From: Longimicrobium sp.
GTDB lineage: Bacteria; Gemmatimonadota; Gemmatimonadetes; Longimicrobiales; Longimicrobiaceae
Length of the DNA stretch: 47,812 bases
Assembly: GCF_035474595.1 (NCBI RefSeq)
Contig: NZ_DATIND010000024.1
Location: forward strand, 1 to 47,812
Reading direction: 5' to 3'
Shown: piece by piece, positions 31,968-33,266 of the stretch
Layout: each line of letters starts with the position of its first letter
Position numbering within the stretch: position 1 is the first letter of the stretch
Translations under genes and position numbers: made by a program
The notes under the pieces: generated by a model
The model's database searches: none
Told to the model about the DNA's origin: nothing
The model's input: the letters and a program-made list of their open reading frames with translations, nothing else

Positions 31968-32018
31968 TTGCGTGTAACGAGTGGCACGAGGGGCAATCCC
32001 CGTATCAAGGAGAGAACG

Positions 32019-32135
32019 ATGCCCACGAACACGACGCTCGCCTGCGGCGAGGAGCACCCGACCACCAGCTCCGTTGCGTGCGAGGAGGACTCGTACGCCG
32101 CGGTGTCAGTGGACAACCCGTTCGGCTCGTTCTGA
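32019..32135 (+). CDS. Putative RiPP (graspetide-like) precursor peptide 1
   Basis: A 38-residue peptide starting MPTNTTLACGEEHPTTSSVA and ending CEEDSYAAVSVDNPFGSF. AAGGAGAG lies four bases before the ATG, a strong ribosome site. It matches the second peptide in CGEE at residues 9-12, in CE-x-D, in the six-residue spacing from there to the end, and in the last eight residues VDNPFGSF. It has many Thr/Ser donors and Glu/Asp acceptors, as needed for ester or amide side-chain links made by ATP-grasp enzymes. No signal peptide. The leader/core boundary is not obvious, because the most constant part is the C-terminus. Confidence 0.75.
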   Translation: MPTNTTLACGEEHPTTSSVACEEDSYAAVSVDNPFGSF

Positions 32136-32150
32136 GCCGGCGGTCCACAC

Positions 32151-32173
32151 GGCCGGCCCTTTTCCGGCCGGCC
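32151..32173 (+). other. Hairpin between the two precursor genes
   Basis: GGCCGGCC at 32151-32158 and 32166-32173 pair around a CTTTTCC loop in the 57-base gap between peptides. It has no T-tract after the stem. It may stabilise the mRNA or pause transcription; the second gene's strong AGGAGG site follows at once. Confidence 0.5.
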
Positions 32174-32192
32174 CTCACGCACAGGAGGACGC

Positions 32193-32303
32193 ATGACATC
32201 CACCACCACCGCCGTGTGCGGCGAAGAGGCCGTTTCCATTCCCCGGTGCGAGCAGGACCGGGACGTCGGCGTCGCCGTCGACAACCCGTTCGGCTCGTTC
32301 TGA
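32193..32303 (+). CDS. Putative RiPP (graspetide-like) precursor peptide 2
   Basis: A 36-residue peptide, MTSTTTAVCGEEAVSIPRCE followed by QDRDVGVAVDNPFGSF. AGGAGG is five bases before the ATG. It aligns with peptide 1 with one two-residue gap between the cysteines. Cys9 and CGEE occupy identical positions, Cys19 begins CEQD, and the C-terminal VDNPFGSF is identical. A 27-base stretch covering the end of both genes and the base run after the stop is identical, pointing to a duplication. The middle and Thr/Ser positions have diverged, so two products from one enzyme are expected. Confidence 0.75.
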   Translation: MTSTTTAVCGEEAVSIPRCEQDRDVGVAVDNPFGSF

Positions 32304-32314
32304 GCCACGGCGCC

Positions 32315-32349
32315 GCGGGCGGCCTCCCAGGCCGCCCGCTCTCGTTTTC
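32315..32349 (+). terminator. Terminator-like hairpin between peptide genes and ATP-grasp gene
   Basis: GCGGGCGGCCT pairs perfectly with AGGCCGCCCGC around CCC, followed by TCTCGTTTT. This is a strong intrinsic-type terminator 12 bases after peptide 2 and 24 bases before the ligase start. Partial readthrough would give much precursor and little enzyme, a usual RiPP arrangement. Confidence 0.8.
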
Positions 32350-32372
32350 ACTTCTGGCTGGAGATTCGGAGC

Positions 32373-33266
32373 GTGCTGCTGATCGCGGGCGGTGAGGCGG
32401 ACTTCAACGTGGAATCCATCGTCACGCGCATGCGGGAGCGCGGGATGGATGGCGAGGTGCTGCGCGTCGGGAAGTCCATCAACCCCGCCGTGACCTGGGA
32501 CTTCCAGCGCGACCGGCTGAAGCTGGACGGCCGGGAGATCCATCCTTCCGGCGTCTTCCTGCGCTACGACGTGTTTTCCGTGCTGGCCGACAACCGGCCC
32601 GCCACGCAGCTCCGCTCGCAGGCGTGGCACATCACCCTGCACGGGTGGCTCCTGTCGCACCCCGGCATCCGCATGCTGAACCGGCGCTACCGCGGCGAGA
32701 CGAACAAGGCGTTCATCCTGGACCTGGCGCGGCGCGTGGGGCTCGCCATCCCCCGCACGCTCATCACCAACGAGCTGGACGAGCTGGAGCGGCGGGCGGG
32801 CGAGCTGGGGCCGATGATCGCCAAGCCGGTGCCCGGCGGCGGCTACGCGCAGATGGTGGAGGACCTGCTGGAGAAGACGGAGCGGCGCGAGGGGCGGTCC
32901 GCGGCGCCCGCGTTCGTGCAGCAGCGGCTGGTTCCGCCCGAGGTGCGCGTCTACGGCGTGGGCGCGGGCGAGCGGCGGCGCTTCGTCGCCTTCCGCGTGG
33001 AATCCACCGAGCTGGACTACCGCGTGGACAACGAAAGCCGCGTCGTGCACCTCCCCATCGGCGAGGTGGACGCGGCGGCGGTAGCGGGGCTGGGGCGGTT
33101 GATGGACGCGCTGGAGATGGACTACGGCGCCGCGGACTTCAAGGCGGACGCGGAGACGGGCGAGCTGCGCTTCCTGGAGGTGAACTCGGGCCCCATGTTC
33201 GCCGCCTTCGACGCGGCGAGCGGCCACGCGGTCAGCGACGCGATCCTGGACTGGCTGTCGGGCTGA
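32373..33266 (+). CDS. MvdD/RimK-like ATP-grasp peptide ligase (putative graspetide macrocyclase)
   Basis: A 297-residue enzyme expected to use ATP to join a precursor-peptide carboxylate to a hydroxyl or amine through an acyl-phosphate. Residues about 1-95 look like the pre-ATP-grasp domain of microviridin-type ligases (LLIAGGEADFNVESIVTRM, VFLRYDVFS). The ATP-grasp part has NKAFILDLA (Lys112), PMIAKPV (Lys151), PAFVQQRLVPPEVRVYGVG (hinge, Glu190, Arg192) and ADFKADAETGELRFLEVNSG, whose Asp255, Glu269 and Asn271 fit the Mg-ATP ligands. GTG start. It immediately follows two tiny genes, supporting a peptide rather than a metabolite substrate. No protease or transporter gene is adjacent. Confidence 0.85.
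   Translation: MLLIAGGEADFNVESIVTRMRERGMDGEVLRVGKSINPAVTWDFQRDRLKLDGREIHPSGVFLRYDVFSVLADNRPATQLRSQAWHITLHGWLLSHPGIRMLNRRYRGETNKAFILDLARRVGLAIPRTLITNELDELERRAGELGPMIAKPVPGGGYAQMVEDLLEKTERREGRSAAPAFVQQRLVPPEVRVYGVGAGERRRFVAFRVESTELDYRVDNESRVVHLPIGEVDAAAVAGLGRLMDALEMDYGAADFKADAETGELRFLEVNSGPMFAAFDAASGHAVSDAILDWLSG

Follow-up and report, generated by a model that had tools for sequence, protein, structure and literature searches.

The window analysed here, a stretch of 47,812 nucleotides of Longimicrobium sp., carries on its forward strand, at 32019-33266, two small precursor genes (P1 and P2) followed by one ATP-grasp gene, and we have little doubt that they constitute a graspetide locus with plesiocin-like chemistry. 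The arrangement is likely to represent a minimal locus, two precursors plus one macrocyclase, in which the enzyme is guided by the C-terminal tail of its substrates, and we propose that it belongs to a natural family of plesiocin-like graspetides guided by a follower. The first-pass annotation had singled out two peptides of 38 and 36 residues with strong ribosome sites, a common VDNPFGSF ending and an ATP-grasp gene next to them, all of which was confirmed from the sequence. The features, with the basis for each in brackets, are:

32007..32012, forward strand: ribosome-binding site of P1, AAGGAG (sequence)
32019..32135, forward strand: precursor P1, 38 aa, ATG start, MPTNTTLACGEEHPTTSSVACEEDSYAAVSVDNPFGSF (sequence; homologous precursor at the same position in the related genome L050)
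32031..32054, forward strand: P1 core unit 1, TTLACGEE, matching TTxxxxEE (sequence; unit statistics)
32064..32087, forward strand: P1 core unit 2, TSSVACEE, matching [TS][TS]xxxxEE (sequence; unit statistics)
32109..32132, forward strand: P1 C-terminal tail, VDNPFGSF (sequence; tail counts)
32183..32189, forward strand: ribosome-binding site of P2, AGGAGGA (sequence)
32193..32303, forward strand: precursor P2, 36 aa, ATG start, MTSTTTAVCGEEAVSIPRCEQDRDVGVAVDNPFGSF (sequence)
32205..32228, forward strand: P2 core unit 1, TTAVCGEE (sequence; unit statistics)
32235..32258, forward strand: P2 unit 2, degenerate, SIPRCEQD, at most one link expected (sequence; inference)
32277..32300, forward strand: P2 C-terminal tail, VDNPFGSF (sequence; tail counts)
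32315..32339, forward strand: terminator-like GC hairpin with a T-rich tail in the gap between P2 and the enzyme gene (weak, fold z-score only -1.2)
32373..33266, forward strand: predicted ATP-grasp macrocyclase, PsnB-like, 297 aa, GTG start (homology, fold)

One flank of the locus contains an hslU-type AAA ATPase and hutH (histidine ammonia-lyase), and the other a TonB-domain protein; directly beside the locus, protease, transporter and second modifying enzyme are all absent. An inverted repeat resembling the hairpin at 32315-32339 also occurs in L050, and this hairpin is possibly a partial terminator that keeps the enzyme below the level of the precursors.

The same organization recurs among the relatives of the enzyme. 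The near group comprises ten enzymes, the one in the window and nine others of the same genus or family at 51-82% identity, one of which is an own-genome paralog, and at least one TTxxxxEE precursor lies directly upstream of each of the ten. Scanning the genome collection with the single ATP-grasp sequence as query gave no matches; the wider search of species genomes, with an alignment of ten sequences as query, returned 33 loci, two of them copies of loci already in the set, from Cyanobacteria (Crocosphaera, Moorena, Okeania, Symploca and Trichodesmium), Acidobacteriota, Verrucomicrobiota, Bacteroidota and Alpha- and Betaproteobacteria. In nearly all of these wider loci the TTxxxxEE precursor stops just ahead of the enzyme start or overlaps it, and precursor and enzyme genes abut or overlap at many. 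Homologous ATP-grasp genes consistently devoid of such peptides, named by the first-pass annotation as the finding that would speak against it, were looked for, and nearly all have peptides adjoining. Two enzyme genes, L073 and L083, lack a recognisable TTxxxxEE precursor nearby, and L080 lies at a contig edge. The clade is rare: wider searches in three groups yielded few new members, and of the genomes sampled it was present in 1 of 339 from Cyanobacteria, 4 of 395 from Bacteroidota and 1 of 337 from Alphaproteobacteria. Cyanobacterial, alphaproteobacterial and verrucomicrobial precursors (L065, L082, L066, L087) start with a conserved domain that they have in common, about 95 residues long; representatives found no match in Pfam or NCBIfam.

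Several loci deserve separate mention. In the Acidobacteriota locus L073:3472-4932 the ATP-grasp gene directly follows an unrelated-looking frame of 486 codons, and no TTxxxxEE precursor was found. In the Okeania locus L091:862-1840 the precursor ends abnormally and is tail-less, and the adjoining ATP-grasp was matched only over residues 130-297; this is probably a decayed locus. The window's own genome also harbours an orphan precursor (L122, C134:18202-18222, reverse strand) that combines several TTxxxxEE-type units with the tail NPFGAF and that no ATP-grasp of the clade adjoins, as well as a cysteine-rich 83-aa peptide (MRKLSLNPDELVVQSF...; L002:847-1098, reverse strand) that lies downstream of a paralogous ATP-grasp and resembles another RiPP precursor. 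Graspetide-like loci composed of a GG-leader precursor, an ATP-grasp and a third gene were seen in the own genome (L003) and in a family member (L014), the third gene being one that, recognised by eye only, we take to resemble the SPASM partner of grasp-with-spasm systems.

A distinctive trait of the precursors is their C-terminus. A PFG-type ending occurs in 40 of 45 precursors, whereas of the 1,609 other open frames at these loci four have a comparable ending by chance; the variants are NPFG[SAEG]F, SPFG[RW]Y, GPFGA[YF], NPFGRR and GPFG[DE]R and, in a few, [SG]AFG[ES]F, NPLGAF or SALGSF. At the DNA level, the pattern NPFGxF-stop matched ten times in 21 related genomes and its reversed control not once, and all ten matches, P1 and P2 among them, are precursors with TTxxxxEE-type units; three of the ten, among them one on contig C134 of the window's own genome, are unlinked to any enzyme gene and still keep the tail. 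The core pattern GEE[DEG]PTT behaves in the same way, and both are missing from members of the genus without a clade enzyme (G002, G003, G005 and G007). The window's genus and family include 16 tailed precursors, and in each of them the first core unit begins no more than ten residues from the initial Met, so that there is no N-terminal leader. The first-pass annotation was right that a PFFARFL-type leader is absent; a better description is that a motif resembling a recognition element stands at the C-terminus.

Three Rhizobiales relatives (L081, L084, L086) have nearly lost the core and have kept NPFGGR or GPFG[DE]R. Five distinct Bacteroidota precursors (L063, L072, L078, L143, L144) are tail-less and possess an N-terminal GG leader, and over the precursor set GG leader and PFG tail are mutually exclusive, near-perfectly; the one flagged exception, L064, is probably due to a listed start set too far upstream. 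Mapped on the tree, the tail state requires two changes, one in Bacteroidota and one in a branch with haloperoxidases. When enzyme positions tracking tail loss were scanned, only position 180 (Ala) differed in five of five tail-less enzymes, a signal too weak to interpret because so many columns were scanned.

In the haloperoxidase branch, a vanadium haloperoxidase gene stands directly before the ATP-grasp gene in L058 (8404-10347; own genome, G000:C152) and L057 (1596-3518). Both ATP-grasps belong to the clade, that of L058 being an own-genome paralog. The haloperoxidase is complete and matches 1QHB with E 6.6e-98 over residues 97-549; a C-terminal extension of about 90 residues follows, which contains five or six GEE-type repeats and lacks a PFG tail. 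Where the C-terminus of another haloperoxidase paralog from these genomes was read, it had no repeat extension, and the literature searched described no haloperoxidase with core repeats. On balance we favour a multi-phylum graspetide family in which the recruiting motif is naturally C-terminal and the N-terminus is free, so that repeats may be appended to whole domains, in one branch a vanadium haloperoxidase that would bear cross-linked hairpins.

It seems to us fairly likely that the enzyme recognises its substrates by the C-terminal tail. Makarova et al. give Phhx(1,2)h as the general graspetide leader motif and place it frequently in the first 30 residues (PMC8939145), and Johnson et al. 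narrowed recognition of the fuscimiditide leader to the tetrapeptide RPFG and moved this leader to the C-terminus, a position they termed unnatural, with the enzyme still active at about half the rate (PMC13003496). The PFG tail closely resembles both motifs but stands at the opposite end of the chain, and a natural C-terminal recognition motif is reported in neither paper. AlphaFold models were built with precursors and enzyme in one frame, the TGA codons being read as Gly to give natural read-through fusions. In model 1, with three fused alignment rows, pLDDT within precursor and linker reached at least 50 only around residues 28-36, which correspond to the tail; in the control, where the precursor part was covered by the first row only, the tail showed a slight rise and was not singled out, and the docking hint of model 1 may be an effect of alignment coverage.

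The PFG tail could instead serve in C-terminal processing, export, binding or turnover of a graspetide whose enzyme reads the core repeats directly, an explanation that we hold to be rather unlikely. It would accommodate the haloperoxidase-fused precursors, presumably modified without a tail, as well as the AlphaFold control without docking, and repetitive cores alone could bind the enzyme sufficiently. It accounts poorly, however, for the clade-wide mutual exclusion of GG leader and tail, for the similarity of the tail to known graspetide leader motifs and for its outliving the core in the Rhizobiales relatives, and the loci examined show no common protease or transporter gene alongside.

The core itself, which the first-pass annotation did not recognise among known graspetide groups, turned out to be the plesiocin TTxxxxEE hairpin motif in a short and partly degenerate form: both units of P1 and the first unit of P2 match it, and the pattern is found throughout the clade. 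A near-group precursor, MSDATTNYYGEEGETTLAEGEETQTTFAVGEE...NPFGAF, provides an example with TTxxxxEE units. The cysteine-acid motifs pointed out earlier do exist, as CGEE and CEED or CEQD, but they are part of a motif whose conserved elements lie elsewhere, for in multi-unit relatives TT..GEE is constant and Cys is absent. Among 313 GE[ED] sites in 44 precursors, counted with related sequences included and so not independent events, 293 have Thr, Ser or Lys at -6 and Thr or Ser at -5, compared with a mean of 16 and a maximum of 26 in shuffled controls. Lysine occupies the donor position in KTQACGED and KTLACGEE of near relatives, which, judged by these residues, would fit amide rather than ester chemistry. 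The first loop residue, a position that could set protease specificity in plesiocin-type peptides, is the most variable of the unit (L, Q, A, R, M, K or Y). Sequence search found no solved relative of core or tail. A Cys-based lanthipeptide or thioether peptide was also considered and rejected, Cys being kept in one sub-branch only and no such enzyme being encoded nearby.

As to the cross-links, the recognition of the tail and the role of the product, we infer the following scheme. The ATP-grasp enzyme would be recruited by a C-terminal follower (NPFGSF in the window, PFG family-wide) and not by an N-terminal leader; using ATP, it would activate two Glu side chains per TTxxxxEE unit and join them to two Thr or Ser, sometimes Lys, side chains, which would give each unit a nested pair of cross-links like those that PsnB makes in plesiocin. 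P1 would then acquire up to four links, and P2 two or three; the calculated monoisotopic masses before modification are 3963.676 (P1) and 3787.713 (P2), each lower by 131.04 if Met is removed. By analogy with plesiocin, the product is possibly a protease inhibitor, perhaps a multi-headed one.

The enzyme fits this scheme. Among enzymes of solved structure the closest is PsnB, which synthesises plesiocin, both by sequence (E 8.7e-19, identity only about 27%) and by profile (E 3.8e-30), and PsnB is also the top fold match (Foldseek E 3.5e-19; VIA-align Z 23.1, rmsd 3.7 over 282 residues). RimK-type folds (Z about 21-22) and MdnC follow so closely that the fold is insufficient to decide, and it is sequence that decides for PsnB. 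NCBIfam gave weak similarity, far under the cut-offs, to the graspetide maturases SAV_5884, MvdD and MvdC, and the Pfam search of the ATP-grasp found no domain. In a tree computed under LG+C20 from 293 columns, the enzyme falls within a clade of 37 sequences, whose internal order is poorly resolved, with PsnB and two other Gemmatimonadota ATP-grasps outside (support 99/97). The graspetide reading of the first-pass annotation is accordingly supported, with PsnB as best solved relative, a PsnB/MvdD-type ATP-grasp adjoining small precursor genes in the window, and precursors adjoining nearly all homologous ATP-grasp genes.

The proximity of RimK-type folds, together with the presence of tgmB among the plasmid hits, would be in keeping with an enzyme that extends the peptide end by amino acids or ligates the two ends, with no side-chain cross-links. 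Such a RimK-like activity is very unlikely, since PsnB is well ahead of other solved enzymes by sequence and end ligation gives no reason why donors and acceptors should keep a constant distance in about 300 units; ligation of the tgm/pheganomycin type was rejected on these grounds. That the small ORFs are chance frames in GC-rich DNA, the ATP-grasp having another substrate, finds some encouragement in the reading frame of P1, open far upstream across the hutH antisense strand, and is nevertheless hardly credible in view of the strong ribosome sites, the identical C-termini, the occurrence of homologous ORFs in every close relative and statistics that greatly exceed those of shuffles.

Published accounts present graspetide enzymes as guided by a leader, and the authors of a 2026 paper had to engineer their C-terminal leader. 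We claim the C-terminal architecture as new only relative to the literature texts searched. If the tail-guided reading is true, a natural C-terminal motif and a sister branch with GG leaders would make leader position directly testable, and a six-residue C-terminal tag directing side-chain stapling would be a handy tool for protein engineering. The repeat-bearing haloperoxidase, in turn, leads one to ask whether full-size enzymes, too, may carry graspetide cross-links.

Compared with known systems, corallotide and other large graspetide precursors share a protein-sized N-terminal part with the cyanobacterial and alphaproteobacterial relatives, but differ in core and partner enzymes (PMC13097080). 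Microviridins (group 1; MdnA/MdnB/MdnC) employ an ATP-grasp of similar fold, and their PFFARFL-type motif resembles the tail in its Pro-Phe start and later aromatic residue; unlike them, the window locus has another core and one enzyme instead of two, and its precursors show neither an N-terminal PFFARFL leader nor a TxKxPSD-type core. Fuscimiditide and ThfB (graspimiditides, group 13) come closer in the motif, RPFG there and (N/S/G)PFG here, and ThfB accepts a C-terminal leader (PMC13003496). There, however, the natural leader that holds RPFG is N-terminal, the core is a Thr-Asp stem-loop and a PIMT-like methyltransferase gene is usual, none of which is seen here, where PFG is C-terminal and the neighbours are hutH and a TonB-domain protein. 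Plesiocin and PsnB (group 2) are the most similar in chemistry, with repeated TTxxxxEE units, a single ATP-grasp of the same fold and of closest sequence, and two links expected per unit. The leader of PsnA2 is N-terminal. It is cut from the core (PMC9484694). The window enzyme, at about 27% identity, forms part of a separate clade, and its substrates, each with only two short units that contain Cys, carry a C-terminal PFG tail in place of a leader.
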